This document shows, piece by piece, positions 327-28,452 of a DNA stretch of 28,452 bases (positions are counted from its first letter, which is position 1; each line of letters begins with the position of its first letter). This DNA comes from Trametopsis cervina. Lineage: Eukaryota > Basidiomycota > Agaricomycetes > Polyporales > Irpicaceae. Position numbers and translations under genes: made by a program. The notes beneath the pieces are model-generated. The model worked only from the letters and a program-made list of their open reading frames with translations. It had not been told where the DNA came from and did not search any database. The DNA lies in assembly GCA_022385755.1 (NCBI GenBank), contig MU278393.1:2079-30530 (forward strand), given 5' to 3'.

Positions 327-331
327 GTCGG

Positions 332-342: not shown

Positions 343-453
343 ATCTAGAGGAGGGGCCTTATGCTTGTTGGCTCGAGTGAGTATGCCTGCCTGAGCGTGG
401 AGGCTCAGAGGCTACTCATCTACTTGAGCTTCGTGGCGGCGGCCTGTCGTCAG

Positions 454-888: not shown

Positions 889-966
889 GATGCTTGAGCG
901 GTGAGTAGTTCATTCGGCGTTTGCGCGCGCGCCATGTAGGTTCGTTCTTTCGAGAACTTAAAAAAG

Positions 967-5271: not shown

Positions 5272-5531
5272 GAGTACGTTTAGGAAAGTCTCAAATCTCG
5301 GGGAGTTGATGACGAACGGGATTCGTTGTACTTCACTCGAAAAGAGACGGAGGACTTCGTTGATGTCTGGGTGTTCGGGGTTATTGTGACGATATGGGCA
5401 CGGTTGGTCATTACAAGGGAAGAAGCTAGTTCTGCCTTGATCGTCTTGGGTAGCCCAGACGTCGTCACCGTCAGAGAATACAAAGTGCGCAGCGTCAGAA
5501 TGCGACCAGATGCGAGAAGCCACTTTTTATT
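5272..5531 (-). pseudogene. Open stretch in the gag frame upstream of the gag ATG
   Basis: This roughly 85-codon stretch shares the gag frame and is separated from gag only by the TGA at 5271-5269. It has no ATG. It contains an acidic patch (FSDGDDVWATQDDQG) and a Cys/His-containing segment (FFPCNDQPCPYRHNNPEH). I infer it was part of a longer gag, possibly joined to the coiled-coil ORF at 5540-6139 across an indel or small intron near 5530. The product family is not recognised. Confidence 0.45.
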
Positions 5532-5539
5532 TACTACTT

Positions 5540-6299
5540 CTAGTGTTTTATAGTAAATAGTGGTGTACCGAACTCCTCTACAACAAAGCGTACATGCTCC
5601 TCGTACTTTGAACGGAGTGGGGTGAAGGAACGTCCCTTCAAAAGCAGGAAGCAGCGTTCGAGGACTTTCTTGTCCTGAAGCGACCAGCTTTCCAGTCTTA
5701 GCTCAAGCACCTGATAGAGGTCGTCTACCAGGTGTGCCACACGTTCAAGACCTTGTTTCAGGTCTGGGGCGAGCTTGTATCTCTTTTCGCAATTGAAAAG
5801 AGGCAGCAAGCGCCTTTGAACGGCTTCGAAACGGGGACCTAGGAGCTTAGCTAGATCCTCGTTTGTTTTCTTGTTGAAGTCAATTAAGATCGGCTTCGGG
5901 GCGGAGAGGGTTGCCGCGGCTTTACGAGCGTTGGCGGAGGCGGCGTCGGATAGGCGTTCGAGGAGAGGGGGCTTCGGAGGAAGCGCTGCGCGTTCTCGCT
6001 CGAGGTCGGCTTTCTCGCGGCGGAATTGTTCGTAAGCCTTGTCGAGAGCTTCACGATCTTGACGAAGGCATTCTTCGGTGAGGACGGGGCGATGGACTCG
6101 TTCCGGAGGGGTGGAGACGAAGTCGACAATGGCGCGCACGTCGGAGTTGGTGAACCGGTGGGGAGAACCGGCTTGTCATTTTTCTTTGAACGCGTCAAAG
6201 AAAGATTGTGGGAGCTTGTTCCGTACTCGTGGAACAGAGGCGGGAGGGAGATCCTTGCGAAGGTCTTTCGACTTCGAAGAAGACGCCTTGGGCACTATG
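5540..6299 (-). pseudogene. Leader ORF with coiled coil upstream of gag
   Basis: The uninterrupted part (about 6172-5540) encodes roughly 200 residues with no ATG. It has a charged helical stretch (DREALDKAYEQFRREKADLE) that should form a coiled coil, then a Leu/Arg-rich helical C-terminal half ending in FGTPLFTIKH. Upstream the same frame continues past one TGA near 6178. It reaches a Lys/Ser-rich segment (VPKASSSKSKDLRKD) preceded by ATA at about 6299-6297, which could be a decayed ATG. I infer a gag N-terminal domain or accessory ORF of the same element. It lies between the primer site and gag, where such a protein would be translated first. The function is unknown. Confidence 0.5.
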
Positions 6300-6450
6300 C
6301 AGAGCCAAGCGTTAGCAAAGCACCAATGCTTTCAGCGGCCTTCCCAACAGGGAGAGGTTATGCTTACTATTGGCGTTGTGATTTGGAAAGTGGAATAAAC
6401 TTTTTAAAGCAGGCGGGGGAGCCCGAAAACTAGCCACCAGGCCTGAAGAG

Positions 6451-6462
6451 ATCTCGACCTAA
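6451..6462 (-). other. Primer binding site, self-priming type
   Basis: Directly inside the 5' LTR the minus strand reads TT then AGGTCGAGAT (6460-6451). No tRNA-type TGG start is present. The ten bases are the exact complement of ATCTCGACCT, which lies at 6670-6661 in the LTR about 34 nt downstream of a TATA box, where transcription should start. This is the arrangement known from Tf1 and Sushi-group elements, whose mRNA 5' end primes its own reverse transcription. Confidence 0.7.
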
Positions 6463-6696
6463 TGTCACAGAGACTGAGTCACGTGACGTATAGGGATTAC
6501 TCCTATCTCAAGACACCAATCGGTGTAAGCTCCTTATTCAGGAGTGAACAGCCAGCGAACTGTGCGCAAGTCTAGCCCAGTAAAGACCAAGTGATATTAG
6601 TTAGTAACTATAATAAAGGACAAGTACTAATACGGCTTACCTAGCCCAGTAAAGACCAAGAGGTCGAGATGGGGGCTAGGAGCGAAGGAGGCCGGG

Positions 6697-6704
6697 TATT
6701 TATA
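6697..6704 (-). promoter_or_regulatory. TATA box of the 5' LTR
   Basis: The minus strand reads TATAAATA. It lies 34 nt upstream of ATCTCGACCT, the predicted mRNA 5' end. The third LTR keeps TATATATA at 8117-8110 and the same 34-nt spacing to the identical ATCTCGACCT. Confidence 0.65.
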
Positions 6705-6748
6705 CTACTGGAGGCTGTGCACGGATCACTTTAGGGTGGGACAGTAAA

Positions 6749-6844
6749 GACAATAGGACGTGGCAGCGGGACAATAGGACATTAGTGCGGCGCGACAATA
6801 GAAACGGAGACAATTAGAAAGAACAATGACTAGAGAGACAATAG
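6749..6844. repeat. Array of GACAATAG-like motifs in LTR U3
   Basis: Copies start at about 6749, 6770, 6794, 6809, 6821 and 6837. Most read GACAATAG(G), with GACAATTAG and GAACAATG variants, spaced 12-24 bp. The third LTR has seven related copies at 8162-8253, including GACAAAGG. The ACAAT/ACAAA core resembles HMG-box protein sites, so this may be an enhancer array. Confidence 0.6.
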
Positions 6845-7163
6845 GAATGGTGCCACTACGGGCGTAATTACTAAGGCCGAGTCTGAGTCATAGACCGATG
6901 GACCGGAAGTCCGAAGGGTCGGGGAAAGGAAGAGTCCGAGGTTCCGGAGGGATCCGGAGACCGTGCGGAATTGCAGGGCCGGTGATGTCATTATCAGTCC
7001 GGGCCGAGTGAGGAGTGCGAGTGCGCGTGCATGTGCATATCATGTGATCGTGCGGGTCATGAGACCGCATCGACGAGTCACGTGATCGCGAGGACGTGTA
7101 GGACGCGCCAAAATAAAAGAAAGGAAATCGAATAAATTGGGCGCTACACGTATAACCATGACA

Positions 7164-7877: not shown

Positions 7878-8572
7878 TGTCACGGAGACTGAGTCACGTG
7901 ACTAAAAGGGATCGCTCTAGAACTCAAGACACCTAAGGTGTAATCCTTTATTCAAGGATAACAGCTAACAAGCTGTGCGCAACGCTAGCCCAGTAAAGAC
8001 CAGAATACATTAGTAAAGTAGTTTACAATACAAACAAGTAAGTAAAGGCTTACCTAGCCCAGTAAAGACCAGAAGGTCGAGATGAGGGCTAGGAGCGGTG
8101 AAGGCCAGGTATATATACTACTGGAGTCTGCGCACGGACCACTTTAGGGTAGGGCAGACGAGACAATAGAACAATAGCGTGACGCGACAATAGAAAGAGA
8201 CAAAGGGAAGAGAACAATAGGGAACGGAGACAATAGACCGAGGGGACAATAGGAATGGTGCCACTCCGGGCGTAATTACTAAGTGCCGAGCCTGAGTCAT
8301 AGACCGATGGACCGGGAGTCCGAAGGGTCGGAGAAGAGAAGAGTCCGAGGTTCCGGAAGGATCCAGAAGCCGTACGGAGTGGCAGGGCCAGTGATGTCGC
8401 TATCAGTCCGGGCCGAGCGAGGAGCGCGAGTGCGCGTGCATGTGCATATCATGTGATCGTGCAGGTCATGAGACCGTGTCGATGAGTCACGTGATCGCGA
8501 AGACGTGTAGGACGCGCCAAAATAAAAGAAAGAAAATCGAATAAATTGGGCGCCACGCGTATAACCATGACA
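7878..8572 (-). repeat. Third LTR of the left gypsy family, solo or recombinant
   Basis: At 695 bp it aligns end to end with 6463-7163 in the same orientation, with TGTCA/TGACA ends, TATA at 8117-8110 and ATCTCGACCT at 8083-8074. Neither flank has the family's primer site or purine tract, so it is not an end of a full element. The flanking pentamers CAACC and GGTGG differ. Gag sequence on its left does not resume on its right. I infer recombination between elements at two sites, or a deletion. Confidence 0.85.
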
Positions 8573-8928: not shown

Positions 8929-10917
8929 ATGCATCCCTACCGCCGCTCCTCCTACCGCCGTCGGGATACCCGCCGTAGCCGGACGCGTTCCCAGACTCGC
9001 TCGCCCGCACCTCCTGCACCACCACGCATCGAGGCTTGGAAGTACCATGCAAACGTGGGCATCATTATGCACGGGGCGTCCTGCCAGCAGTGCACCAACT
9101 GGCTGGGCCATAGGATGGTGTCGGAGCGGGATCACACCTGGCACACCGCGCGTGACGAGGAGGAGGTCGACTGGACGGACACCCTCACGGGTAAGGGGTT
9201 CATGTCGCCCTCGCAAGTCCGGGAGCACGTTGCCCGTGCACGCGCCGAATGGGAGGACGACGCGGTGGAGCTCGAGCGAGGACGCACCCGTCAGCGGTCT
9301 ACCAGCTGCCTCAGTGACGCTCCCGCCACAAAAAAACAAGCTGCCACAACACCGCGTTCCCGTACGCGGACACCACCACCTCCTGTGCCTGCCACAGGCG
9401 ACTCCATCTCCACTAGGCTCGAGGACCTTGAGCACATTGCAGAGCAGCTGCGCCGCGCTCTCGCGTCCCATGGTGATCACAGGTTGAACACTTGGTCCGA
9501 GCACACAGCCGCGCTCAGCGATTTGGAGCTCAACCGGCGTGTTGCGCTTTGCTTCACGCGTGACATACCATCGGAACCGGACGACGACATCGACGAAGTC
9601 GACCACACCACCGAACTCCGCAGGCGGCGTCGTGCTGCGTTTAAAGCCGGTTGCCGTTGGATTTCTTAGACGGTCAGTCAAGAATCTCACTCCGCGGAGC
9701 CTCCAGCAGTCGACAAAGGGAAGGCAAAGGCCGCACCGCCGCTCGAAGTGCGCATTACGGACTGGGGGGAGCAGGCTGGAGACTCCGACTGGATCGCAAG
9801 AGGGGATCACAGCTCTACCACAGCAGACGCAACACTCCGCTCCTCAACACATCCACAACTCCCAGCTGCAGACAGGCTCGAGCGTCTCGAGCACGATATT
9901 CAGATGATCAGCCAGGACACTCGTCCGAGTGGAGGCGAATGCGAAGAGGACAACCGCGAGGACAGCGGGACACCGTCCCTGTCATCACGGATATCTAACC
10001 CCATCCCATTGGCGGAGAGATCCGACGTCTCGATACCAAGTCGACCGCACACTGCCTTGCCCCCACGCAAGCATGTCGGAATGGAATGGCGAACCCCATT
10101 GGTGGAGGAAGTCCTACAGAACTACTACCACGAGTTCGATGCGGCAGGCGAGCAGGTGCTCCTCCTCGAGAAACAACCTGGAAAATATTGCATCGTATAC
10201 GAACGGCTCATCCATCTCAGCATGGACTTCCCGCCAACTCCGCCTGTGCTTGGATGGAATAATCCATTCACAGGCCGCCCATGGACAACAGCCGAACTAT
10301 CGTTATACCCTCGCAGGTTCCCAAACTGGCCATCATGGGGTGTCGACAAGATCTCAGAGGCAGAATGCATAGGGATGCCTGTTGGAACTGCATCTCTCGT
10401 CGGAGGAAAATACGACGGACGTATCAATAGCAACCGGCCTCGGAATGACAAAGACATGCACCTAATCCGTGACATGGACAGATCGAAACACCTCCTCCCC
10501 CTGCGGATAGTGGAGACTGGTGGCAGATGGGCCCCTCCTCAAACCATTGATGAGATAGAAACCCTCAGGAGGGTCGCCAGGACTGCCTGCAACCTCATGG
10601 CGTGGAACCACTGGTCCGCGATCGTGTCATCGACACAGAAAATCCCGGCGCACAAACAAACTGACGTTCACCGGGCTGTCCTCCGACGTCCGCCTCCACG
10701 TCCATTGTGGGCAGAATGGATACGGCCCAAGTCACACGGCTCAAAATCAAACGAGTGGTATCGACAGACGAAGGAGACCCACTTGAACCTCTACGGGCCT
10801 GGACCGTCTAGAGCACGCCCTCAGGAACAGGGCGTAAGGGAGGACGATATAAAGGTCGAGGAAGGAGAATGGTTTGGCGGGAACTCTGGTCGACTGACGC
10901 CTAGCCGTCATATGTGA
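8929..10917 (+). pseudogene. Long ORF of the pol-less LTR element, one in-frame TAG
   Basis: One frame runs 663 codons from ATG 8929 to TGA 10915-10917, broken only by TAG at 9667-9669. The N terminus is Arg/Ser-rich (MHPYRRSSYRRRDTRRSRT). It has a CQQCTNWLGH segment resembling half of a zinc knuckle, an acidic/basic helical region (VREHVARARAEWEDDAVELE) and a predicted coiled coil (LEDLEHIAEQLRRALASH). The part after the TAG has a Trp/Pro-rich domain (NPFTGRPWTTAELSLYPRRF; RPPPRPLWAEWIRP). I recall similar hypothetical proteins in Agaricomycetes but cannot name a function. The basic N terminus and the position between leader and purine tract suggest a gag-like nucleic-acid-binding role; this is inference. 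No GT..AG intron of normal size removes only the TAG. Confidence 0.65.
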
Positions 10918-11180: not shown

Positions 11181-11437
11181 TGTAAGCCTACACAGGCTCC
11201 ACATTCCGATCCCGCGCCCACACCTTCCCGATCCGTTCACTACGCTCTACTCATGCTCCCTATTCCGTCATTACACGACGCATCACATTCATACACACCT
11301 TCCCTTTTAGTATTCCGTACACATATATAAGACGACTCACAGATGTAGTTAGACAGTCTTCTTTCCCCCAACTTGAAGTTGAATACACACCCCGTGATAG
11401 TTTCCGTCTCCGAGTGTTTCCCCTCGCAGGGTTTCCA
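11181..11437 (+). repeat. 5' LTR of the plus-strand chromovirus
   Basis: Begins TGTAAGCCTACACAGG and ends GTTTCCA. TATATAAG lies at 11324-11331, so transcription should start near 11355. It differs from the 3' LTR at 11208, 11370, 11380 and 11393 only. Confidence 0.93.
11324..11331 (+). promoter_or_regulatory. TATA box of the chromovirus LTR
   Basis: TATATAAG, identical in the 3' LTR. I find no 9-base or longer complement between the region about 30 nt downstream and the bases just inside the LTR, so self-priming is not evident here. Confidence 0.6.
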
Positions 11438-11917
11438 CTTTTTTTGAAACTTCCCACGGTCTCCGTCTAGCCGCTGCCGTTCTCCCTGTCCCCAACCGTT
11501 ACTGTCTTGCTATCTTGATCGCTGTTTTCCGCCGCACTAGTTTCTCCAGCACGTCTCTGTCAGGTCGACACACTGGCAATAACTCGTCTCCAATCAAAGA
11601 GACGCACCGCCGCTATATCGTTATCCGCCACGGGTGACGTCTCAGCAGACACTGTCGTCGAACAACCTGTTCCCTCAGAAATTACACTGGACGCGTCATA
11701 CGTCTTCGTGCCCCGAACTGCCTCCGATAGCGTGGTACCCATACTCCCCTCCCCTCTAGTAGCAGCACCCCAGACTTCATCTCGCGAAGCATCGCGATCC
11801 CCAACACCAATCTCTCTGTCTAGCCGCGCCGCCTCCCCATCCTCATCGGTATCATCTTCCTCATCCTCGTCGGACCCACCTGCCGGTCGCCAAACATTCT
11901 CCACCGCCTTCACCAAC
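11438..11917 (+). other. Leader and open upstream part of the chromovirus gag frame
   Basis: The gag frame is open without an ATG from at least 11531 to the first in-frame ATG at 11918. It includes a Ser/Pro-rich stretch (PTPISLSSRAASPSSSVSS). Either translation starts at 11918 and this is leader, or an upstream ATG has been lost. No clear tRNA-type primer site follows the LTR, where CTTTTTTTGAAACTTCCC is found. Confidence 0.4.
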
Positions 11918-14900
11918 ATGTCGACGATTACCGGCAAACGCCTCCTCGCTCAAGCTATTTCCAACGGTCCCAAGAATGCACCGGAACTATCTCCTAGATC
12001 GATCGAACCCGACGTGTTACACCAATTTCAAATCTACTGTGTACACCATTTCCGGGCGAAGAGCATCCCTGTCGAGAAACAGGTCTCCACCATAGCCCCA
12101 GGTTTTCAGGACCCCGCTGTCGCGAACTGGTACTTCACAAATGAGGAAGACTTTCAGGCGATGACCATGGAACCGTTCCTCATGGAATTTCGTAGCCGCT
12201 GGCTCAAACGCAATTGGGCCGAGAATATCTTGTTCGACATCTCTTGCTCCTTCATGGCCGACTCCGAGGACTTCGCCTCTTGGGTCGAGAAGCTCAAGCG
12301 GAAGAATGCTCTCCTGCGCAGCGAGCCAGGACATCTCGATGAGCCTAAACTATATTCTCACCTGACGACTCACGTTTGCCAGAAACTTCGGGATTTCTGC
12401 ATGACCGATGCCACAAAGACGTATCTGTCCTACAAATCTCTCAAGACCGCGCTAATGGTCGAAGATGACAAATGACACGAATTCTATCGTGACGTTCTCG
12501 CGTTCTCTCGCTGTTACAACGCTCCTGTCGCCATCTTGCCTGCTGGCTCAAAACTGTCTCTGGTCGACCGTATCTCTGTTCCTAGGGCCCCCCTTGGTGC
12601 TCGCTTGTCCGACGCCGCTTCGTCTTCGCGTGCCGCTCTGCCGAAACTTACCGACGCCAAACGTGCGTATCTCACACATTTCCGTGGATGCTTCAAGTGT
12701 CGCCGTGTCAACGTCAGTCACTTGTCCAAAGAGTGTCCTAACGACTTCCCTGATGCGGCATCCTACCAACCCTTGTGCTCGTCGTCTTGGCGCGCTCCTT
12801 CTACCACCGCTCCTGTGGCTGTTGGTGTCGCACGTGCGACCCGGGTTAATGCTGTCATCGAAGATGATTACGCCTTGCCGTCCTTACCTGTCGGGGCTTT
12901 CAACTACGATGCCTTGCCTCCTGCCCGCTGCGATTCCGTCTTCAGCGCCGGAGATTCCTCCGACGAGGATTTCAAGTACGTCAATGCTCCCCTTACTTGC
13001 CCACACCTCTACTGGGACGCCTTCGTCCACTCGCCCTCCCACCTTCCTTGCCAAACGCGCATGCTGATTGATTCCGGCGCGCCCGCTGTTCTAGTTGACG
13101 ACGCTCTGGTCGGTCAATTAGGACTGAGGTGTCGTCCTCTTCCACAAACAAAATCATTTAGCACGGCGTGGGGAGGTGCAGCTCAGCTGGCTACGGAGTG
13201 GGTTAAACTCAGGTTCCCAAATAAGCATCAGTCTTGGACGTCTCGTACTTATATAGCAATCGTTGTCAAAGATCTCTTTGTCCCTATCATATTGGGGCTC
13301 CCCTTTTACACGCTGCATGGTTGTTCTATCGATCCGGTCTGCGCTACCATCATCCGCCAGGCCGATAACCTGGACATCATCAATTGCCCGCCCGAGCTCC
13401 CTCCTCCAGTCCTCGTCACTCCGCGCACGGCTGCCGCAGAAGCTGCGGAGGTGCGCGACCTTTCTGACCTCTACCTATGTCGTGTGTTTCGCGACGTTAT
13501 GCGTGAGCTGGTCATGGACCATCCTTCTGTTGCCGCTTTCATCCCCGTCCCGGAGGTCACTGCCCGCTCTGTGTTCAGCGCCATATGTCATCGCATTGCG
13601 GCTCTCGCGTCCATCGAGAACCTCCGCCAGGAAAATGATTGTATGCGCACACGCTTCGTCGATCTTTTCCCTGACGATATTCCACCAATGGATCAACTGC
13701 CCTCAGACGTTTACCATCGGTTCCGTTTGAAGGATCCAAACATGTCGTTTCCCCGCCGTCAGTATGGGTGTGCGAAACAACACCGCGAGGCTTGGCGCAC
13801 CCTCTTGAACCAACATCTTGCCGCAGGGCGCATGCGCCCCTCCTCCAGTCCTTATGCGTCCCCTGCCTTCCTCATTGCGAAGAAAGATCCCGCTGCGTTG
13901 CCATGATGGGTTAACGACTATCGCGCCCTCAACGCAAACACCGTGCCGGATGCACACCCGCTGCCTCTCATCTCGGACATCCTCTTCGACTGTGCTAAAG
14001 GCCAGTATTGGGCCAAAATCAACATGACGAACTCCTTCTTTCAGACGCGCGTCCGTCCCGATGACATCCAATACACTGCCGTCACTACCCCCTTTGGTCA
14101 GTACGAATGGACCGTTATGCCACAGGGGTGCCGCAACGCACCTGCAACTCATCAACGTCGCATGTTCTCTGCCCTTCGCGATCATGTGGGCACAATCTGC
14201 CATGTTTATCTGGACGATATCGGCATCTGGTCGCAAACTCTTGAAGAGCATTGTGTGAATGTCACTACCGTCCTCAGGGCGCTGCGCGCCCATTCACTCT
14301 ACTGCTCCCCTACCAAGACCGATCTATTCTGCACTGAATTAGACTTCTTGGGACATCACGTCTCACGCCGCGGTATCGAGGCGGATGCCTCCAAGGTGGA
14401 GAAGGTGCTCAATTGGCCTACGCCCCAATCTGTCAGCGACGTCCAGTCTTTCCTCAGCCTTGTACGCTATATTGCGAATTTCCTGCCAGCCTTGGTGCTG
14501 CACACTCACGTTCTGAATAAGCTTACCACATCCGAGGCCAAATTGAATTTCGTCTGGTTGCCAGAACATTCTCTCGCTTTCAACGCTATCAAACAGCTTG
14601 TTACTTCTCGTGAATGTCTCACGGTTATCAATCACAATAACCTGGGGGATAACAAGATCTTTGTGTCTACCGACGCGTCCGACTTCTGCTCCGGCGCTGT
14701 CCTGTCTTATGGTCTCACGCTCGAGTCTGCTCGACCGGTCGCCTACAAGAGCCAATCTTTCAAAGCCGCTGAATTGAACTACCCGGTCCACGAGAAGGAA
14801 CTCCTCGCAATCGTGCACGCGCTCGCTAAATGGCGCGTTGATCTCCTTGGCGTGCCTTTCATCGTCTACACCGATCACCGGACCTTGGAGAATTTCCATT

Positions 14901-16696
14901 TGCAGCCGGACCTCTCTCGATGTCAGATGCGATGGCAAGAGTTCCTGGCCCAGTATGACTACACCATCTGTTACATTCCCAGATCCGAGAACACTGCCGC
15001 CGACGCTATGTCCCGACATCCGCTTGCTCAGCCTGACGCGTGCCCGGTGGGTGCCGTCGTTACACATTTCTCCGTGGCTGCCAACGAATCTTGGATGTCA
15101 GATATCCTGCTCGGTTATGCGGAAGACAAATGGACCCTTCGCCTCACCGAAAGTCTGTGGACAGCCGCTGCAAAGGCCGCTGCCCTGCCTGCTGCTCGCA
15201 CGCTCTCTGCGACGGATGCCTTACGCTACGGTTTACTGAATGGCCGCTCACTCGCGGGCAGAAATGCCCGCGATGGTTTGTTGTATGTCGGCGATCGTCT
15301 CGTCATCCCGCGGGTACGCCACTTACGCAAACAGCTCTTCCGCCTGGCTCATGACAGTCTCGGCCACTATGGCGGTGACAAGTCCTATGCCGCTATGCGC
15401 GACGCATACTACTGGCCGCACATGCGGTCCGAGCTGGAAGGACTGTATATTGCCTCTTGTGAAGCTTGCCAGCGGAACAAGTCGCTCACGCGGAAGCCTG
15501 CCGGCCCCTTGCACCCCTTGCCCGTACCTGATGGGCGCTGCAAAAGTGTCGCTATCGACTTCGTTGGACCGCTTCCTGAGGATGACGGCTTCAATTGCAT
15601 CGTTTCTATGACGTGTCGATTGAATTCGGATCTGCGTATCGTTCCCACCAGGGCCAACATCTCTGCCGAGGACTTTGCTGCTCTGTTCTTCCGCCACTGG
15701 TACTGTGAAAATGGCTTGCCTCTCGATATTGTCTCTGACCGCGACAAACTTTTCATCTCTCGCTTTTGAAAGGCCCTGCATCTCCTCACCGGAGTCAAGC
15801 TCAAGATGTCAACAGCCTACCACCCCAAGACCGACGGCGCTAGCGAACGTTCGAACAAAACCATTATTCAAGCCCTCCGCTTTTATGTCGAGCGCAACCA
15901 AAAGGGTTGGTCTCGTGCCCTCCCACTTGTCCGTTTTAATTACATGAACACCGTGAACGCGTCCACTGGCTTCTCACCTTTCCAGCTTCGGCATGGCCGC
16001 TCACCACGCATCATTCCCACTCTCACACGGGCAGATACCGCCGCTGCAACCACCGCGATCGGGCAAGAGGCTATCACTGCGCAGGAAATTATCGACGCCA
16101 TCGATGCCGACGTCATGGAGGCACAGGACAATCTCCTGCTCGCTAAGTCTTCCCAGATGTATCACGCTAATCGCTCCCGTGCCGACGAGATCGTCTACGC
16201 TGTTGACAATAAGGTGCTGCTCTCCACCTTTCATCGCCGTCGCGACTACATGCGTAAAGGCGATAATCGTGTTGCCAAATTTATGGTACGCTACGACGGC
16301 CCTTACATTGTAACTCACGCCTTCCCGGACGCTTCTGTGTATACGCTGGACATCCCTGCTCATAGCCACGCATTCCCCACCTTCCACTCCTCTCTGCTCC
16401 GCCCTTGGCTCCGCAACGACGGCTCCTTGTTCCCCGCGCGCGAACACGAAGAACCTGGCCCTATCGCAACCCCGGATGACGCTGAACACATCGTGGAGCG
16501 AATCCTCGACCGTCATCCCGTTGGTCGTGGTTTCCGCTACCTTGTGCGATGGCGCGGTTATGGACCCGAACACGATGAGTGGTTGGCCGGTGCGAAGGTC
16601 AAAGACTTCGCAGAGTTGGATTTATTTTTGCACAAAAATGGTTTACCTAGCGTGTCTCCGGACGCCGTCTTTGCTTCAGAAGGGGGGAGAGTGTAA
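11918..16696 (+). pseudogene. gag-pol: Chromovirus gag-pol polyprotein with chromodomain, three TGA stops
   Basis: One frame of 1,593 codons with no frameshift. In order: gag (ANWYFTNEEDFQAM; EFRSRWLKRNWAENI), an unusual knuckle CX2CX6HX4C (CFKCRRVNVSHLSKEC), aspartic protease (MLIDSGAPAVLV), RT (WVNDYRALN, VYLDDIGIW), RNase H (STDASD, HEKELLAIVHALAKW, YTDHRTLENF), and integrase with a zinc finger (HDSLGHYGG...CEACQRNK) and DDE residues in AIDFVGPLP, VSDRDKL and TDGASERSN. It ends in a chromodomain (EHIVERILDRH, YLVRWRGYGPEHDEW). TGA lies at 12473-12475, 13904-13906 (where the RT motif expects a residue before WVNDYR) and 15767-15769 (where Trp is expected after SRF). Chromodomains of this class are known to direct integration to heterochromatin; that role here is inferred. 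Confidence 0.93.
16678..16691 (+). other. Polypurine tract of the chromovirus
   Basis: AGAAGGGGGGAGAG is directly before the 3' LTR and overlaps the last sense codons of the chromodomain protein. It primes plus-strand DNA synthesis in this element class. Confidence 0.8.
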
Positions 16697-16948
16697 GCCT
16701 ACACAGGCTCCACATTCCAATCCCGCGCCCACACCTTCCCGATCCGTTCACTACGCTCTACTCATGCTCCCTATTCCGTCATTACACGACGCATCACATT
16801 CATACACACCTTCCCTTTTAGTATTCCGTACACATATATAAGACGACTCACAGATGTAGTTAGACAGTCTTCTTTCCCCCGACTTGAAGTCGAATACACA
16901 CCCTGTGATAGTTTCCGTCTCCGAGTGTTTCCCCTCGCAGGGTTTCCA
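16692..16948 (+). repeat. 3' LTR of the plus-strand chromovirus
   Basis: 257 bp, gap-free match to 11181-11437. Differences at 16719 (A versus G), 16881 (G versus A), 16891 (C versus T) and 16904 (T versus C). At each, one copy has CpG and the other TpG or CpA. Confidence 0.95.
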
Positions 16949-16953
16949 CTGGT
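16949..16953. repeat. Target-site duplication CTGGT, right copy
   Basis: Matches 11176-11180. Removing the chromovirus and one copy restores a continuous 220-bp LTR with TGTAAGGG/CCCTTACA ends. Confidence 0.9.
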
Positions 16954-17242: not shown

Positions 17243-18802
17243 TTAATCCCTGCCCCCTTCCTTTATCCAGGTACCCATATTGCCCTTTTTGACAAGCATG
17301 GTGTGTGGATTCTTCGGAAATCTCAGTGTTTTGTCACACTGCCTTTTATCGGTGAGTATGGTCTTACAAGAGAAGACGAGAGTCTCAGCAGCCTCAACCT
17401 TGGGGGCACTCCAGCTCCAAATTGCCTTGCAAGAAGGACATTGATATGGTAGAAAGTGGCCTCAAGGGCGGGTCACCCTTTCTACCCATGTAAACCGGAC
17501 TGCGCTGAGATTAGGCCGCATCCACACGATTGCTGTATGTCGACCAACAACATAGCATTGGTCCAGCACCTTTTCCAGGTGGCGAGCTGGATCGAGGTTG
17601 CGAAGGATAGTCTGCTCAACATATCCTTCAACAAACGGGTAGGTCGTATGGCTGATCAAGCCCTGTGCCGCAAATGCAAACGCATGATCAATATTAAGCC
17701 TGCAAGCTTGTGTTTGAGATTTATCAAGTGAAGATGAGATGAAGTGCTCACAAGTTGATTTGACCTTTCAACTGGTCAAAGGACTCTTGATGAAGAACCG
17801 TCCCACCACAAGCCAACAAGAAGAATGACTTCTTGGTGGCTGTGAGTGGCTGAATCAAATGTGATAGGAGCAATTCAAAAAACTAGAGTACCTTGTCAGT
17901 ACTTACTAAGAGAAGTTATTCTTACTCACTTCATCAATCGTGCAGGCACCGTCAGGCATGTAAATGATATCCCCCCGATCTTCATCTGCATGCGCACACA
18001 AAAACAGGATCAAGTGCTCGTATCTGGACCACGAGACTTGAGTGGCAGGTTTGCAGCAACAGTAAGAAATAACTCACTGAGCAATTTGTTTGGCAAGTTT
18101 TTTTAGACGGGATTGCTGTTGGTCAATGCTTCTGGCTTTGGTAAAGTCAAGCGGGTGCGCCAGGTACTTGAGACGGTCCTTGTCCTTGAATGGTGCATAC
18201 CACGGCCAAAGTCGTTCAGAGAGAAGATGACCAGGTCCACCTCGAGGGTCCAGAGGCGGAATATGGAGATCTAATATGAAGATGGAGGGGAGGCAAAACC
18301 TTGGAGTTAGCGGCACGTAATTGTCGTGCTGAACTATTAGGCCATCGGGGAATACAGGGGCGCCATCTTCGTAGTATAGGCCCTACAAATATAAGAGATG
18401 AGAAATATCATAAGAGAGCAGGACATCTAAAACTTACTAGGTATGACTTGCCCTTTCGGTCACCTTGCTTGTCGCACTCGGGACAACGAAAGATGGCCAG
18501 CCCCAGCACGCCAGGTGGCACGGTCTTTAATTGGGGCGCGCAGCCATTACACAATGTTCTTCCGCAGGTACATTCAATTAGGTCGCCGCCATTTAAACAG
18601 ACACAGCACCACTGTCGCAAACAGTCAGTACGTCTCATAAACCAAACACCTCTGTACGCACCGGGTCCGCCTCTGCAATGCCAGCAGGTTCCCACTGGGC
18701 TCCGACCGGTTCTGCAACAGGTACTGATTCCACGCTACCCAGAGGTTGACGAGGTGCCTTCCCGCCGACAGCTTTCTTCGCGCTATGTTTTGTACGGGCC
18801 AT
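17243..18802 (-). CDS. Histone-H3-tail mimic with PHD-like finger and caspase-like segment
   Basis: Exons (minus): 18802-18662, 18611-18438, 18382-18078, 18023-17930, 17882-17752, 17699-17462. Introns are 50, 55, 54, 47 and 52 bp with GT..AG borders, several with CTGAC branch sites, and all phases fit. The 360-residue product starts MARTKHSAKKAVGGKAPR. After Met this matches histone H3 residues 1-17 at 12 positions, including K4, K9, K14 and R17, with S10 to A and T11 to V. Residues 49-93 hold eight cysteines (C49, C52, C61, C63, C68, C71, C90, C93) in a PHD-like spacing, with Cys at the usual His position. Residues 208-282 have the pattern ILFLCAH(218)ADEDRGD ... FFLLAC(263)GG, resembling the His/Cys dyad of caspase-fold proteases. 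TGA at 17464-17462 is followed in frame by 72 codons with four spaced cysteines (CPSC, SC, QC) and TAA at 17245-17243. The TGA may be a mutation of Trp. A chromatin-linked role is inferred. Confidence 0.75.
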
Positions 18803-19129
18803 ACGTTGCAGCGTCAGAGCACGGTGTAGTCTTGTTCAGAACGCGTCAACCTTAGAGGCGCTATACTTCTCGGTAGTCGCTGGATCATGTGACTGTGCAT
18901 TCGCGGGAAGTCATCCTCATATTATTTCGTCAGCGTAAGTTCCGCTATTCGTTTATTATCGATAGCGGCTGCTTCCTATAGCAAGGGGTCCTTCCGAGGC
19001 CCCTTGCTAGGACCCAATTTTCTCCAGCTCTTCCAACTCCCAACGCGACCTCCGGTTTGGTTCCGAAGTTCTCATCTCAACTTAGGCATCTGGGGATGCT
19101 GTTCGGGCCTTTGGTAAGTTCATCGCTCG
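18803..19129. promoter_or_regulatory. Intergenic region upstream of the H3-mimic gene
   Basis: It lies between the minus-strand H3-mimic ATG and the first duplicated plus-strand unit, so it may serve both directions. No clear TATA box is seen. It contains the 10-bp hairpin at 18979-19009. Confidence 0.35.
18979..19009. repeat. Hairpin with 10-bp stem TAGCAAGGGG/CCCCTTGCTA
   Basis: TAGCAAGGGG (18979-18988) and CCCCTTGCTA (19000-19009) pair perfectly around an 11-nt loop. It lies in an intergenic stretch between divergent units. The role is unknown. Confidence 0.5.
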
Positions 19130-21500
19130 CCCGTTTTTATGTTTTACTCACGTGCATGGTCATCGACCACAGTCGCGCAACGATTGTGCATGCCGCACAC
19201 GACTCCGTGTTGTGGTACAGCCGCTGTTAAACCGCCTGCACCTTCACTCCTCGCGCCACCGTCGCACATCAAGCCGATGCACGCAGACGAAGTCGTGGTT
19301 GATTAATATCAGATCTTTCTGCACGCAAAAGCAGAGCACGACTCGAGGGACCTGCGACACACTCTTTTGATCCCCTTGGCCCAGGACGTGCCTGCATGCT
19401 CTTATGCAGCGAAGATGTCCCCTAGTAGGAGCACGTAGTGGAAATCAAGTGTTTTGGGGCGAATGTGGATGGGCTGTCGTGTACGTGAGTTATTATATTT
19501 GCCTACTACTTTCCTCAAACGTCGTGACACTCTGCAATCTCACGCAGACTATTCCGCCGCTGACCAGTACAAGCCGACAATAATCCACCCATACCCGCTC
19601 CCGATCCGCGATCCGCACTCCTCTCACTCTCAACCCTGATTCAGAAGACTCTGCATAGCTAGTCGTGTATTCCAATGCCTCGCAACGTGATGATCAAGAA
19701 CGCAACCTCGCGAGCCCAGTGCATCATCTGCGTCACACTGGATCCCGCATAAAATCGAACGGCGCCACAGTGTGCGTGTGGCGTGTGGACAGACAAGAAG
19801 CTGTCAGCAAGTCCCCCGGAGCACACACTGATTAGCTTCCCTGGATTGTCTGTGCGCGCGACGTGGTGTGTGGACTGATGAGGACCCATCCGCGAACATC
19901 TCGAATCTCACACCCCATGGACCACCTCAGTCGCCTTCTCCTCAGTCGGGAACCGCCGATTTCCTCCCAAGACGCCGCAATCCCCTGTGAATGGCTCGGC
20001 CCACGCGTTCCTCTGAGGTTCTCCCGGAGATCCATCCGAGTCCTCGCTCACGGGCTATGAGATACCCGACTTGCGGCCGTGCAGCAACGATCAGCGGAGG
20101 CTCGGAGGACGACACTCAACGAGCACCGTCTCTTCCAGTGCATTGTGCCCTTCGCGCTATAGGTGGGTTGAGCGTGCAGTAATCGCTGTTGCCCTCTACT
20201 CACGTTCGCGCGATCCCACAGCCTGCCATGTGGCTTGTCCAGTCTCCCGCAGGTGTCTCATGGCTTCAGTCCCAGCCACAGCCGCGCGACATGTGATGCG
20301 CCGAGTCCAGACCTCAAGCTATATGCCTCACACGTACGTCCCGCTGCCCATCTGAGTCTGATAGCGTGCCCAGCAAACAAATACTGTCAGCACGCTCACA
20401 GATCATGAACTTGTTGAGTTGTGGCAGAGGACCGCACCCAGTTCACTGTAATCTCAGACCCGTAAGTTGTCCCCCTTCCCCCTAGCATCGATCAATATAC
20501 TTGCATCGTGGTTAATTCGTACTACCTAGGTCAATCGGATGCGCGTGCTCACTATTCAAGGCTTTACCAGTTGAAGTCGTCGCATCCCAAACACAATGTG
20601 TCGTGCACATTCACTCAACACTGAATCGACATACAGCACGGGCTGGCGTTTGGACGACTTGGAGGATGTCCCTCTTTGCCTTGCTCTGCTACAGGATGTG
20701 GGGCCCTCACACTGTACCAAAAAATCGACCTTTGTTGTGTGTGCTGCTTGTGAGTGTTTTCGCCGCATATATCCAACTCAGTGATCATAATTATGTCATT
20801 TGCCTGCCTATTCACCCTTCTGGACCGTTTTTAAAGCCTCCTGGTCTCCCCTGAGGGTATATCCCACCCCGCCGGATAACGTTGGCGACGCAGCGTCCGA
20901 ACCGCCTCCGCGTGCGAAATTCAGCTGAAGTCCGTGCCGCTTTAATTTTGGAACTATGAATCGGACCCTCCACTCAAGTTGTGGCATCCATGACAACCGC
21001 TCTCTCTCGCTCAATTTCTCAAGCTATAGGACTTCCACGGACCCGATCGGTCTCTTGAGGATTCGCTAGAAGGGTGCGCCTCCAAAGATGGTGCAAAGCA
21101 CGGCTGCGATGCTAACATGTACACGTGAGGCGAGTGACGCATTGCGGTACGTCTCAAGCTCTCAGCCTGAGCTCTATTCGTACATTCACGATAGACTCCC
21201 AGGTGTCTCATCACAATCATCCGTGGAGTCGTGTCAAAGATATGGCGAGCGGTACGTGTCTACAGATCACAATTGATGTTCTGCGCTGAATATACCCTCG
21301 TATACCTGTCAGTCTAGTGCGCCGTGGTCGATCTCTAGAGCTTTATACGTCCTCGCTCTTACGTGCCGTTTGGAATTATACTCATGGGCAGAAACTCGCA
21401 CACGGCCACGCTCAACGCCATCCTCGACGATTCTGATCGGGCCTCACGTATCAGAGCCGAGCCCTCGTTTCCAAGTCCGAAGTCGCGATGGACATGCTAC
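19130..21500 (+). repeat. Diverged intron-bearing unit, copy 1
   Basis: Colinear with 24890-27440. Anchors: CTTCGTGTTGTGG-like block near 19204; ATCGAACGGCGCCACAG near 19753; ATCAGCGGAGGC near 20090; TTGAGCGTGC at 20168-20177; CGCATATATCC near 20763; GATAACGTTGGCGACG near 20875. Four GT..AG segments occupy matching places in both copies: 19485-19547, 20163-20221, one starting at 20750, and 21147-21202. An exon at about 20080-20354 reads ISGGSEDDTQRAP, then ends VPLPI and stop, matching ISGGAQDDMRRE and FFLI stop in copy 2. No continuous gene model holds, because stops appear in other exons. I do not recognise the family. It may be a decaying paralogue of copy 2. Confidence 0.55.
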
Positions 21501-22190
21501 GGTAAGCCGAAGACTAACAGCACTGCTCTGTGAAGTGTGGTACACTTCGTTCTTACGGCTGTCGAAGGTATTGTGAGCACAACCGATATGAGATTGTCTG
21601 CGTTCTATTTGTTGCCTATTTAATATAGAGTTGCTGCGTTCTCCAGGCGCATAAACGATGGGCAGTGTTCCATAGATGTCAAAATCCTCGATCCGAACTG
21701 GACTGGACTTAGCGCACACACAGTAGATAGGTCTGTCGATAGTCTGTCGAATCATGGACCGCCAACGAAACATTAGCGAGAGACCTGTAGGTAGCGTATG
21801 CACCTAATGCCATCGCTGATACATTGGGAATGCGAGTGGGGTTTGTCGCTTTCGTTTATGTTAAGCATCGGATTATCTAGATCACTTGTAAACACAGGCT
21901 GACGTCGGCCGTTGGACGATGCAGGGTAATGAATCGTTACCGCCCCTCATCTCCGGAGCATTTGGGAACCGATATACAGACAAACGCGCCCCGAAGATGC
22001 TAGTACAGTCCTTTTTATGCCAATTTTGCACCCTGCCGGATATCGATCTGAAATTCTACTTCCCCTTCTGCTATGGTGACGTCATAAAGAAAGGGATGAA
22101 CGGGGATAAGGAGCTGTAACAGTCGAAACCGAGAGACCTGGGCGATGGTTTCAGCTGCAGCCATGAATTTACCAGAGAACGTCACTTGTT
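21501..22190. other. No gene recognised
   Basis: Short frames only. A 66-codon plus frame (21919-22119) has an ATG but no motif or homologue that I can see. I see no repeat shared with other parts of the window. Confidence 0.3.
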
Positions 22191-23360
22191 GAATTGCTGT
22201 GGAGTCGTCGTGTCAAGTTTCAAGATGGGCGGAGATGTGGTTTGACCAAACAGCACGGCTACGACATAACTCCAGTGCCACGCATTCGCGTAAGTCAGGC
22301 GCTACAAGATAGTGAACTGCGCGGGTCGGCACAAATGGAGACTCGCCTCTGCAAGTGGGCAGACGGCATGTATCTCTGGAGAGTTCAGGAATTGCGGCGA
22401 GCACAGGCCTTTGGGATGGGATGCATTTGGTGGCGAACGGTCAACAGAGACCAAGGACAGCGGGTTCGCGGCAGACCTGCGGGTTTTCAACGCGTGATTA
22501 TCGTCAAAAAATGCAGGAGGCAATCGGAAGACATGCAAAGTATGCGTCTCAGGGGGTGAGAGCGTGTGTGAGGTCTGAACGGTGGAAGAACACACAAATT
22601 TGACGGCGCACATGCCTCAGGCAAGCTACCGCAGAGGTCAGTGGACGGTGAGTGTCTATACAACACACAATCCGATCGCAACTCACCTGCCGGTTCTGCG
22701 TATTCGCTCTCACTTCCCCGCTAACGATTGCTCAGTCACAGAGCTTCACGGACGGAGCTTGAGATTGTGGGAACAATGTCAGTACACCAACGTGAGACGT
22801 CAACGGTATGTGCTCACCAATCTAACCCCGTATACCGGATCCAATGATGAATGCTGTGGATGTCGTAGATAAACGGATACACACGGCGAATGCGCAGGCA
22901 TCTCGCAAGCTGTCGAGCTGAGGTGACTGATGAGGACATGTTAGACAAGAGGGGTAAACGTAATGCTATGTAGATGTGTGCAGGCACGGGGACGTATTGA
23001 GTGTATCGGCACATGTGGACAGAGAGCGAACGCAGATCACATGAAAATAGCTCAGCGGTGACTACTATTCGTGACGGACACACCACCCATCAGGATCCGG
23101 ATATATCCTCAAGTGAACCTGTCCAGTGCTTCACTCACAATGTGCGAGATTCCAACCTACGTCTGCAGCCTGCGCTGTGCGGGCTGAAAGGTGCGAAATG
23201 GCATGGAATGTCGTGCATGAAGAGACCAATGGTACTTACTGAGCGGATAACATCGTCTTGCGAGATCTCGAGTGAGAGACCTTCCTATCGTTCTCCAGTA
23301 GAACTGAAATCATATCCATTAACTGGCAGCGCAATACCATACGAATCATATTAGAAAACA
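22191..23360 (-). repeat. Minus-strand unit, copy A (core 22565-22690)
   Basis: The core aligns with 24205-24345 at roughly 70% over about 117 bp with one indel. On the minus strand it contains a 61-bp GT..AG segment (22686-22626) with an ACTGACC branch-like site. The first exon-like side shares a GCACATACCGT(T/C)GACG block with copy B. The reading frame is not kept across the exon-like part because of a 1-nt indel, so this is a gene relic or a noncoding transcript unit. Outside the core the alignment is weak and the limits given are approximate. Confidence 0.4.
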
Positions 23361-24200
23361 CAAGCAGCGGGGCAACGGCGTTAGTTGGGAGTCGTGTCGG
23401 AAGTAGGCCGCGTTCAGTTTAAGCCTTGGATCGCGATCATTGGTCATTAAAGAGCGCATCTGTTTAGTGAGCCCGATGATAAGCTGCGAGAATTGATGGA
23501 CAGAAAAAGTATATTAGCTTACTGTATTTTGCCTGAAGGTGATCAAGACAACTATGAGTCGATGTCCTACCGATGGCTGAGTTCGGCGCACCTTGATTCG
23601 CCAATCCGTGAGCAGATACTGGTCTTCCTGGAGCTTCTTCTCTAGTACCCAGAGCCGAAGACGTAGAGCTCATCCTGGGAGCGCAAAGGTATGCAGCAGG
23701 GTAGCGTTCGTGATGTAAAAGCTCCAAGTGTTTTTTTCTACTTCTGGCGCAGAAGGTCACGAGGCGATAGCGGACAGCGAGAATTCTCGGCGGAGACAGG
23801 GAAGCGTTGAAATCGACATCCCCGAGATCGTGTCAGCATGCGTCCCGGCCAGCGCGGGCAAGCAAATTCAGTTCCAGACGTCTCAGCCACTCTGAGTCGT
23901 GAAGCAGCGTGCAGTTAGGGTTTTGTGGGTCGAAGACTTAACAGGAATTAAAAACTCACCTCTGCGAGCTGATACACCACGAGTATCTCCTTGCGGCCCC
24001 AAACCGCCTGTGAGGGTAGACGTTCAAGTTGAGATGTGTTCCTGCGTGCGCGCTGAAAGATAGGCGGAGTGCAGTACCATCGGCAGGGGCAGGGACCGAG
24101 ATTGGGAGCGAATTCAAGGTAAGCGTGCATATTTGCACCGTATTGGATCCGAGTCCGACTGGGAAGGCGTATGAATAGAGGGCATGCATGTTGTGCTACC
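23361..24200. other. No gene recognised
   Basis: Minus-strand frames of 77-126 codons cover 23948-24328 but overlap one another and include the exon-like end of copy B. No domain or motif is visible, and I found no repeat here beyond the copy B boundary. Confidence 0.3.
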
Positions 24201-24640
24201 TCGGTGCCTGAGAGGGAGCGTCCTGTATGAACGGTGGGATGAAGCAGTAAACTTGAAGGCGCACGGACTTTACGCAACCTACAACAGAGCGGAACAAACG
24301 GTGAGTTTTCATACAACACGCAATGCAATCGCCACTCACCTCACATCCCCCACTGACGGTCTCCACGTTACAGACAACGCTTGATACTGCATGCAAGGAG
24401 AACAACGGTGCACACGAACGCGATTCGTCGACGGTATGTGCCTGCGAACTGGATCGTGCACAATGGTTCGGGCGATGAAGATCAATGAGGGACGGTTCAA
24501 GCGTTGGTCAGAAGTCACAGAGATCAAGCTGACACGTCCACTCACCACGCGTCTTAGGATTGATTATGCCCTTGCTGACAGGTGATAAAACTGAGGCGCG
24601 ACAGTGTGAGGTTCAATGGAGGTGAGTGCTTAAGTTGAGA
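24201..24640 (-). repeat. Minus-strand unit, copy B
   Basis: Paralogue of 22565-22900. The minus-strand GT..AG segment at 24339-24279 is also exactly 61 bp. The exon-like part continues as VRAPSSLLLHPTVHTG in an open frame reaching 23948. The product is not recognised. Confidence 0.45.
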
Positions 24641-24889
24641 TCCGGATCAGTTGATGCGTCGGCGAGAGCCGCCGTGTCGGGTTTGATCCACAGAGGTTAT
24701 CGCATCAGAGGATCTGAGAGTCGCATCATACCGGCGGCACCTGCGCACGCGACAGAGTGCGCTTCCCTCTCCTTGCGACTCTCAGCGTACGACGCCTATC
24801 CCAGCCTGTTCACGTTCTTTACCGTCGCACCTAGACTTAGCTCTGGTGTATCCCTAATGAGTTCGTTTACAATGCTTCTTCCATTTGCA

Positions 24890-27440
24890 GGCGGGTTTCT
24901 TTCACTCAAATGAACACCGACCACAGTGTCCTAACGGTACAGTATACTTGCCTGCCTCGACTTCGTGTTGTGGAATCACTGCTCACACCCGCGGCACCAG
25001 GTCATCTGCAACTCCAACACACGCGGTCGGTATCGATTATCCAACATCAAGGACGCCGACGTCGCTCACTCCCAACGCATGCAAAGAAGAACACGCGCGA
25101 GGTGCTGCGACCCTCTTTATTCAACGACCTTCGCCCACGAGCACACTCAGCAGCCGTTTCCCCTTTCCAGCGGGCGGAGATTATACTATGACATCCTACT
25201 AGAGCGCGTGGTGCAACAGCGAAGTAACTGGGTACCGTTTGATGGATGGCTGTTCGCGTAAGTCTCCTCACTTTGTTTGCGCACTGGTGTTTCGACAAAC
25301 GCAACACACTTTCTGACATCGCGCAGTATATCCCCCTTCATATACGTCCAAGCAGATTATGCTCTGCTCGAAACTTTTCCTCGACGTACGATCTGCAAGA
25401 TGCGCCTCGTCAACAGTCTGTCTCTCCTGCGGCGTTTTACTCGGCAGAGGCTGCTCTGGAGACGAGTAGACAGTGAGTTGCGTGCGTGGAGAGATTATCC
25501 CTCCCGCTGGTTCCGGTGTTAGCTGGCGGAGGGTGACACCCGTCTCTGTGGATTCGATGGTACGGCTGCGGCGTGAGGCAAGTATGATAGTGCGATTCAG
25601 GTATCGAATGCACGGCCATGGGCTGACCACGCACTTCGCAGTGAGTCTCGGCCGGTGAGCAGGTCCGTGCACCGCGATCGAACGACGCCACAATGAGGCT
25701 GTGGCGCGAGGAAGCACGAGAAGCCATCAGCCAATCCTTCGTCCCTCGCTCCTCGCACTCGTTGGCTCACCTCAGTCCCCCTCTCGCTGAATGAACGATC
25801 GAATCGAACGACTGCCCCAATCTCGAGCGGTGCCACACCCGTCTATGTCATTGGCGGCCTTCTCAAAGGCCTGCCCTGATCATCGCTCGCGGGCTACTAG
25901 ACGTCAAGGTTGTGGTATCGCAGGCTCGAGCCAGTTGATGACCCCGGGCAGCGAGATCAGCGGTGGCGCACAGGACGACATGCGTCGAGAAACATCGTCC
26001 ACAACGCACCGTGCACATTTCGTCCCAGGTGAATTGAGCGTGCTAATATCCATTCTCACTCCCTGATCACATTCGTTTGATCCCTCAGCCCATCATCCGG
26101 TTTGCTTGGTTTCGTACGGGTGGCCGGCAGCTCCAATCTTAACCACAGCCATGCGACGCGTGATCCGCGCGAGTTCAGAACCAGAGTCTGAGCGTACCTC
26201 ACGTGTGCGTCCCACATTCTTTTTAATATAATCCCCGAATTCGCCCAAACGTCGCTCACACTGCTCGCAGTTGGTGAGTTGATGGCGTGTACCTCAAATA
26301 TGTGAGTCTCTCCTGCTTCATAAACTCCCGCGTCGCTGCTACTTTGCGATTCTCAGTTCAGTCCGCTACGCAGCATATCCGTAATGTTCAAAACAAGACG
26401 TGCAAAGCTACCACATTCCGAATCAGGACGTAGAGGGATTGCCTACATATATTCGGAGGGGCCTACTCGTCCACTCACACTCGACGTCAACCGTCATTAC
26501 ACTGTCGATCCACGATGCGATACGGTCTTGGAAGATACAATATAAGTGAGTACTTTCCCGCATATATCCGGCTCAATAACCACAGCTACGCTGTTCGTCT
26601 ATTCGCCAACCCTCCAGACCTACTATCAACGCTTCTTCGCGACCTCGGGGCAGGACCTCACAGTGCCCGCCAACACAGATTCCGCGGACCATCTTACAGC
26701 CCCAATATCTGCGTTCTCCTCCGAGGACATATCGCGCCGTCCTGGTGACATACTCGGGAATAACATTGTCGACGAAGCGTCTGCTACGCGTCCCAGGGAA
26801 CCTGAGCACGACGCGAACTTCGAAATGGTGCGCCATACGATTGTCTTCTAACGTGGTGTGGCGTGCGGAAGCACGACGACCTACCAGCTAAAGCCTCCCA
26901 GTCCATACACCACGGTCGTCCTCTCATCTTACCTGGCAGGTTTACGATTGCACTGCGGGATCCCACGCGCCGATCCGAGGTGGAAGACCTCCCGGGAGAC
27001 ACCCCGACTACGTCTGTACGATTCGGATATGGAGCATTCACCTCCCTTCACCCTTATTTACCTCACAAGGAATACTTGCTTTCCATCTCTCTGTTGAGCG
27101 CGTTCGTCGTCTCCACCGCGCGCAATACTGCTACCACGACTTCGTATCGTCTATCCGTCCACTTGGACATGCTGGATGACGGTACGTCCTGCCGCGTGCC
27201 TGTGCCGCTTCCTCTACTGACCGTGTATATGCGTCCCCTCTAGCTGTCTTGGATCACAGGAGCGGCGACATCGTTATCCCTCGGCGTGAATTCGCCCTCT
27301 GAGTCGATACAGATTGCTAATTGCGATCCTAGCGATCTGGCATCTTTTTGGTTTACTAGGGCGCACTCTCGCTCATCAGTTCCCAACACGAACGCGATGG
27401 TCGCGGTGTTAACATTTGTTTATTTCGTTCGCAGGTATAA
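24890..27440 (+). repeat. Diverged intron-bearing unit, copy 2
   Basis: Paralogue of 19130-21500 in the same order and strand. Matching GT..AG segments are 25258-25326 (CTGAC branch), 26029-26088 (CTGAT), one starting at 26546, and 27182-27243 (CTGACC). Frames are more open than in copy 1: 25791-26028 spliced to 26089 reads ISGGAQDDMRRE ... SRVRPTFFLI and stops, and 26515-26748 includes FPAYIRLNNHSYAVRL, matching FAAYIQLSDHNYVICL in copy 1. An ATG at 24910 aligns with an ATG at 19158. I cannot build one uninterrupted protein and do not recognise the family. It could be a living fast-evolving gene, with copy 1 as the decayed one. Confidence 0.5.
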
Positions 27441-28452
27441 TGCCTCGTAATGTACACAATTCCTGTACGTTAACTACAACACCGAAGGACATAACCGTCC
27501 TATCCATATGTTGCTCCCCACTTCCTCTCCGTTGATGTTTTGCCCATGATCCGCGTCTTCATAGTGCCCTTCCTTAAGGGTATGTGGTCGTCGGCTGCTT
27601 GCCTGCTTCGCTTGTACAGTATACAAATGACTGTCGAAATACCGGGACAAAGGCGACGCGTACACGGGACGCCTGTAACGATCAGCCAGCCGTGAATGAC
27701 ATCAAGCATAAATGATGGATAAATCAGGACCGCTCCTCACGAGTATATGACGACGCTGTAGGACAGTGACACTGCCTGCGGCGGTGGGTAAGATTTAGAA
27801 CAGAGATCCCTAGCAGCGCAGAATATCAGAGAATCACCTCGGAACTGGGGGATGGCGCGCCTGCAACGACGATAAACTCACCTGCGGCCCCTTTCAGATA
27901 GAGTGAGAGAGCGGGGTAACAGTGTAACGGTACGCCGCTTTTGAGATGCTGGACCGCAGACGGCGAGGGCGATGAGTGCTGGGAAATTACTCTGGGTTAT
28001 TTCGATGCACGACGGCGAGGTATGTGTACTTACTTACCGTCGGGCACAATATCACGATGCCCTCTGCTCGCCCGTCTTCGTCCATTGTTGCGAAGTTTGC
28101 CCCGTCTCGCGGGATATCATGGAGGGAATCCTTGCGATTTTCCACAGAGACGGCGTTGAGGACGCGGTTCGCGGCTTGTGAGGAGTGGAGTAGACGGTGC
28201 GAGACTGGGAAGATAGTCCAGTCTTTCTACTGCACCAGTCCGGATGCACGACTAGAAAACGGGGGCCCGGATCGCATTGAGTGAAGACATAGAAGTTTCC
28301 CAGGCCGCAGAGATTTCGTACGAGGCATGCGAGATCCTTGTTCAAGGTGAATTGCAGAACCGAGCGACGCGACCTTGTAGCGCAGTGATTTGAGCACTGT
28401 ATGGGCACGGGTGATGTGTGTTCAATGTGTTCAAGCTCTTTTAGTGCCTTGA
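27441..28452. other. No gene recognised
   Basis: The longest frame is minus 28408-28052 (118 codons, basic, Ser/Thr-rich, no motif). Minus-strand splice-donor-like GTGAGTTTATCG and GTAAGTAAGTAC occur near 27875 and 28037, so a minus-strand transcript is possible. I could not assemble a convincing model. Confidence 0.25.

Follow-up and report, generated by a model that had tools for sequence, protein, structure and literature searches.

A histone H3 tail mimic ahead of a PHD-like finger and a putative caspase-like domain in the fungal family Irpicaceae

The 28,452-nt stretch of DNA analysed here (the window) spans bases 2079-30530 of the 88.4-kb contig C46 from the 29.4-Mb genome of Trametopsis cervina (Polyporales, Irpicaceae). 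It carries a minus-strand gene of six exons, the product of which begins with a copy of the histone H3 tail, and this tail is retained in a second genus, Cytidiella. The protein is a genuine and unusual case of histone mimicry, found in a narrow family of fungal proteins. Behind the tail come a PHD-like finger and a core that resembles caspases in sequence profile and predicted topology. An initial annotation of the window had described the H3-tail copy and proposed that the protein could compete for H3 readers or writers, or be modified and read like H3. The observation is confirmed and the interpretation partly supported. The caspase/CHAT-like core, the likeness of the finger to readers of H3 with unmodified K4 (H3K4me0) and an in-frame TGA had been missed.

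Exon 1 (18662..18802, minus strand) encodes MARTKHSAKKAVGGKAPR, i.e., the H3-tail mimic in codons 1-22 (18802-18737) plus a poorly conserved linker, and lies exactly where the initial annotation had placed it. An in-frame stop is present upstream of the ATG, and the intron behind the exon reads GTGCGT...CAG. The tail peptide is ARTKHSAKKAVGGKAPR; without its methionine the protein starts ARTKHSAKKAVGGKAPRQPL and matches H3 at 12 of residues 1-17, as stated earlier, and at 13 of residues 1-20. K4, K9, K14 and R17 are kept in T. cervina and S10/T11 are replaced by A and V, again in agreement with the first description. When the 17 residues of the tail were shuffled, none of 200,000 permutations reached 12 matches, the best giving 10. 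Together with the identical order of ART, GG and AP, this rules out a generic basic stretch resembling a nuclear localization signal. A search of the PDB with the two-member tail profile A1 retrieved H3 tails (best E 7.3e-5). An erroneous join with an H3 gene in the assembly or gene model was ruled out as well: the tail exon is contiguous and only 50 nt away from the finger exon, and the H3 genes found sit on other contigs. No Pfam core-histone match was obtained at E<=10 for the window model or the database models P0001 and P0002, which bears out the earlier statement that this is not a decayed histone gene. The lone histone-related Pfam match, to the 'histone like' domain of PAF15 (residues 1-26), remained below the cut-off with E 0.31.

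Homologues were searched (E<=0.01 or E<=10) over about 5.8 billion proteins by a procedure that could miss relatives of very different length or without common five-residue words. Relatives were found only in T. cervina (P0001) and Cytidiella melzeri (P0002-P0006), both of them Irpicaceae; P0002 represents a cluster of four sequences, one of which was read. The initial annotation had named homologues without the tail as evidence that would count against it. Of the five C. melzeri models, four have retained the tail. The tail-less forms are P0006, a truncated model of 234 residues in which the finger and inner parts are missing as well, and a paralogous fragment on the T. cervina contig (C46:83166-83689), which comprises the finger and part of the core, contains a frame break and showed no tail in its translated flank. 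An open frame of about 882 residues with no Pfam match at E<=0.01 lies beside this decayed paralogue (C46:79718-82363; L040:719-3364).

Across the five tail-bearing proteins, 13-16 of the first 20 H3 residues are identical. The C. melzeri tails account for the higher values (15/20 each in P0002, P0003 and P0004, 16/20 in P0005; 13-15/17 against H3 1-17); that of P0004 begins with ARTRQTSKKTTGG and that of P0005 reads ARTKQTAPKSTGGNAPRRAL. A1, R2, T3, K9, G12, G13, A15, P16, R17 and L20 are constant in all five, and none of the tails contains a gap. S10 and T11 are both lost only in T. cervina. Since the relatives have T/T or S/T at these positions, the loss is not a family rule. MART opens P0001-P0003, leaving a free N-terminal ART as in H3; the leaders that precede MART in the P0004 and P0005 models are doubtful and may be annotation errors. 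Between P0001 and P0002 the tail is 14/22 identical, the linker 4/17 with eight additional gapped columns, and the caspase-like part 100/240. Within C. melzeri, tail and core are held about equally (15/22 and 138/230 for P0002 versus P0005). The excess of tail identity over the body, which has a background identity of about 40%, is modest (P ~0.02, binomial). For the paralogous fragment, dN values of 0.36 and 0.30 were obtained, whereas dS could not be estimated and was taken as saturated; on this basis the sequences suggest past constraint on finger and core.

In the T. cervina genome itself, the H3 gene at C6:130385 possesses S10 and T11 and carries the tail in its first exon. Because of this shared arrangement, the mimic may plausibly have arisen through capture of the first exon of an H3 gene, as judged from the sequences. 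The first 22 codons of the two genes specify 14 common residues, nine of which use another codon, all differing in the third base. The tails of P0001 and P0002 have 12 of 20 residues in common, fewer than either has in common with H3, which suggests an ancestral tail closer to H3. A second H3 gene at C1:751714 differs from the one at C6 in that introns apparently lie inside the tail (MARTK | QTARKSTG.. | GKAPRKQL).

Exon 2 (18438..18611) encodes the eight-cysteine PHD/RING-like finger, WCCVC..GGDLIECTCGRTLCNGC..FRCPEC, corresponding to residues 48-93 (WCCVCLNGGDLIECTCGRTLCNGC...FRCPEC). The PHD-like finger noted earlier behind the tail found its counterparts in a phmmer search against the PDB, with PHF21A/BHC80 (E 3.6e-4) ahead of TRIM66 (0.0044), CHD4 (0.007) and AIRE (0.19); TRIM24 also appeared, more weakly. 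PHDs of this set or of TRIM33 made up 13 of the 18 matches at E<=10. BHC80, AIRE-PHD1, CHD4 and TRIM24 have been placed together among the proteins that recognize H3 when K4 is unmodified (PMC3471955). The sequence matches thus support the view, new relative to the initial annotation, that the finger is probably closest to PHD fingers reading the unmodified H3 N-terminus. It shares with the PHDs of PHF21A/BHC80, TRIM66, CHD4, AIRE and TRIM24 the core C-x-x-C..GG-x-L-[IL]..C, but differs from them in a Cys at the His position, a C-x-C second pair and an insertion before the last Cys pair.

The remainder of the protein is encoded by exons 3 to 6 and corresponds to the caspase/CHAT-like domain: exon 3 (18078..18382) covers its first portion, exon 4 (17930..18023) strand b3 with His218 (codon 17992-17990), exon 5 (17752..17849) strand b4 with Cys252 (codon 17810-17808) in the motif LLACG, and exon 6 (17462..17699) the end of the domain. 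Pfam scans of the T. cervina protein returned nothing above the cut-off, and none of the Pfam scans matched the core to caspase or CHAT. A three-sequence profile from residue 106 onwards matched 19 PDB sequences at E<=10. Caspases made up 18 of these, 17 being caspase-7 (best E 0.0021), and the family Cys aligned to the Cys of the caspase ACRG motif. His218 and Cys252 are invariant in all six aligned proteins. An AF2 model built from five sequences reached a mean pLDDT of 46, with 16 of the 20 ten-residue blocks in residues 131-330 at pLDDT >=50. In this low-confidence model, strands and helices are predicted to follow the order of the caspase/haemoglobinase fold, and His218 and Cys252 end b3 and b4. 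The catalytic His and Cys of clan CD peptidases close these same strands (PMC4357240). VIA-align 2 placed SAVED-CHAT, separase and caspase-6 on top, and clan CD provided 41 of its best 50 rows; a TIR domain and FMN reductases scored nearly as high. Taken together, the profile, the predicted topology and the invariant His and Cys support a resemblance of the core to caspases. Its predicted strand order, and the predicted position of His218 and Cys252 where b3 and b4 end, are those of the CHAT, separase and caspase peptidases of clan CD, from which the family differs by lacking a glycine after the His as well as a Pfam caspase/CHAT match.

An H3-imitating tail, a finger of the tail-reading kind and a protease-like domain on one chain suggest a latch or a chain link. 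We propose that the tail may act as a built-in ligand and occupy an H3-reading pocket, either that of its own finger or those of nuclear readers, and may thereby control the caspase-like domain. This is the likeliest of the arrangements weighed here, with odds that stay below even. A self-directed role is possible because the finger resembles H3K4me0-reading PHD fingers, and the nearest H3-reading pocket in T. cervina would be that of the protein itself. Binding of the tail to the finger in cis would form a latch, and binding in trans would form chains in which caspase-like domains come close to one another. If the tail were methylated, or if free unmodified H3 competed with it, the complex would open or rearrange and the caspase-like domain would be switched. 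In the most specific version, Irpicaceae would have captured an H3 first exon and made it a prodomain that regulates a caspase/CHAT-like protease; the tail would dock on the H3K4me0-type finger of the same protein, and the protease would be set by histone-code enzymes or by free H3. This version appears quite improbable.

A number of observations weigh against the built-in ligand. The odds we give it are slightly reduced by two of them: in the HMMER alignment to caspase-7 the family His misses the caspase His by three residues, falling short of it, and the model is weakest at the dyad: the stretches 218-237 and 252-260, which begin at His and Cys, have pLDDT <50. The tail and the finger likewise have values under 50, at which contact between them cannot be assessed. 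Foldseek gave a mixed picture, with clan CD in six of the best 50 rows and a glutamate receptor on top (taken as spurious, with a root-mean-square deviation of 18.7; SAVED-CHAT came second). Clan CD peptidases conserve a glycine beside their catalytic His (PMC4357240); here it is missing, HA being found in P0001 and HS in the relatives. The usual zinc ligands of PHD fingers are C4HC3. The finger departs from this pattern with eight cysteines, Cys68 at the usual His position and C-x-C as the second pair; a Pfam scan of the finger gave no PHD match, and sub-threshold matches for the paralogue were of the RING type. Given the Cys at the His position and the lack of a Pfam PHD match, the finger is by its sequence PHD-like and is not filed as a PHD. 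The finger is skipped in the P0003 and P0005 models and reduced to its second half, without the first Cys pair, in P0002, and the tail may therefore be able to act independently of the finger; the P0004 peptide is compatible with a shifted reading of WCCVCMNGG. Furthermore, K4 is replaced by Arg in P0002-P0004 and K14 by Asn in P0005. The C. melzeri gene models are poor and patchy, and the surroundings of the T. cervina gene are transposon-rich.

The state of the T. cervina copy itself also has to be weighed. Its five introns (50, 55, 54, 80 and 52 nt) agree in number with the initial annotation, but its predicted length of 360 residues does not hold: the frame of the window model comprises 349 residues and is closed in exon 6 by TGA 17464-17462. 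Over 99% of this query the nr model P0001 (405 residues), in which the start of exon 1 is the same, is 100% identical. P0001 avoids the TGA by a sixth, 51-nt intron at 17476-17426 (GTGACC..AAG) and thus reaches a C-terminal Cys-containing segment (17243..17461, minus strand), which is in frame past the TGA and aligns to uninterrupted coding sequence in P0002 and P0005. These relatives code through the stretch without a break, and beyond the TGA the T. cervina frame remains similar to theirs; the stop is therefore either a recent nonsense mutation in this copy or removed by splicing. It may also mark decay of this copy, which is a further point against a built-in ligand.

Of the other explanations, the one that survives best takes the tail as a decoy or bait, although we regard it as rather unlikely. 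Nuclear H3 readers or writers would bind or modify the tail. They would thereby be titrated, or, in the manner of an integrated decoy, the caspase-like effector would be alerted when a mobile element, a virus or an incompatible partner attacks chromatin. The A1-R2-T3 start and K9, constant in every tail, agree with this, as do the SET-domain genes of the genome (at least 15 matches) and a family that is narrow and multi-copy in C. melzeri; the inconstancy of K4 does not. The idea gains from a fungal two-gene cluster with a link to regulated death, in which a CHAT caspase-like protease activates a gasdermin (PMC12881547). For the mimic, no partner gene of this kind, for instance a gasdermin, turned up, no profile search for one having been made and part of the contig not being readable.

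Also unlikely is that the H3 exon, once captured, is without present function in a transposon-rich, decaying family. The in-frame TGA, the broken paralogue without tail, the patchy C. melzeri models, the two Gypsy elements nearby, the restriction to two genera and the modest excess of tail identity over background would all fit such a relic. However, the tail has stayed gapless in all five proteins while the adjoining linker diverged between the genera, finger and core were apparently under purifying selection in the past, and the frame is open through exon 6. Least probable, and in our opinion highly doubtful, is a pseudosubstrate role. H3 tails would then be the substrate of the caspase-like domain, and the H3-like N-terminus of the protein would be a propeptide that inhibits it or is removed by self-cleavage. 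The order propeptide-protease, the APR (R17) of all five tails and the arginine or arginine/lysine specificity listed for separases and metacaspases (PMC4357240) would suit this, but the HG glycine is missing, catalysis is putative, and linker and finger separate the tail from the protease-like domain.

The closest precedent for a built-in ligand comes from BAZ2B, where an H3-like segment blocks the PHD of its own chain and competes there with H3 (PMC5663869). The BAZ2B segment differs in being an inner basic linker and not a free N-terminal ARTK tail, and no protease-like domain is described for it. G9a, SNAIL1 and influenza NS1 are also named there as histone mimics (PMC5663869). They recruit H3 readers or enzymes through H3-like segments, from which the T. 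cervina copy is set apart by extending over about 20 residues from the N-terminus and by its fusion to a finger and a caspase-like domain. The same comparison holds for PAF15, a further histone mimic. To our knowledge, histone mimics are mostly short motifs in viral or chromatin proteins. Plant type I metacaspases likewise have a zinc finger before a caspase-like domain; theirs is an LSD1-type prodomain, a different finger, and carries no H3 tail. Searches of open-licence PMC papers, at the level of listings and abstract beginnings, for fungal H3-tail mimics or for H3 tails combined with caspase-like proteins brought up no description of this family. A chromo-shadow search gave no match, and neither did its control.

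The neighbourhood of the gene is rich in mobile elements. A Gypsy (Ty3-like) element at 11181-16950, with 259-nt terminal repeats 98% alike and interrupted frames, adjoins the 3' end of the mimic gene on the opposite strand; at the end of its last frame lies a chromodomain (Pfam E 2.4e-8). Another reverse transcriptase frame of Gypsy type (2219-3961, minus strand) is located in 1-7137 between 300-nt repeats 95% alike, and a third copy of this repeat (84%) is found at 8247-8546. The open frame at 9670-10917 (415 residues) has no Pfam match at E<=0.01. Upstream of the gene, 19741-20594 is repeated near C46:56730 with 75% identity, and no long open frame was seen in 19000-28452.

Two fungal genera have kept an N-terminal H3 copy of about 20 residues on a caspase-like protein with an H3-reader-like finger. 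If the tail does act as a built-in ligand, the histone code would be tied to a protease or cell-death module; in the most specific version described above, protease activity would be written and read in the language of that code. One peptide and one domain would provide a compact system for testing intramolecular histone mimicry.
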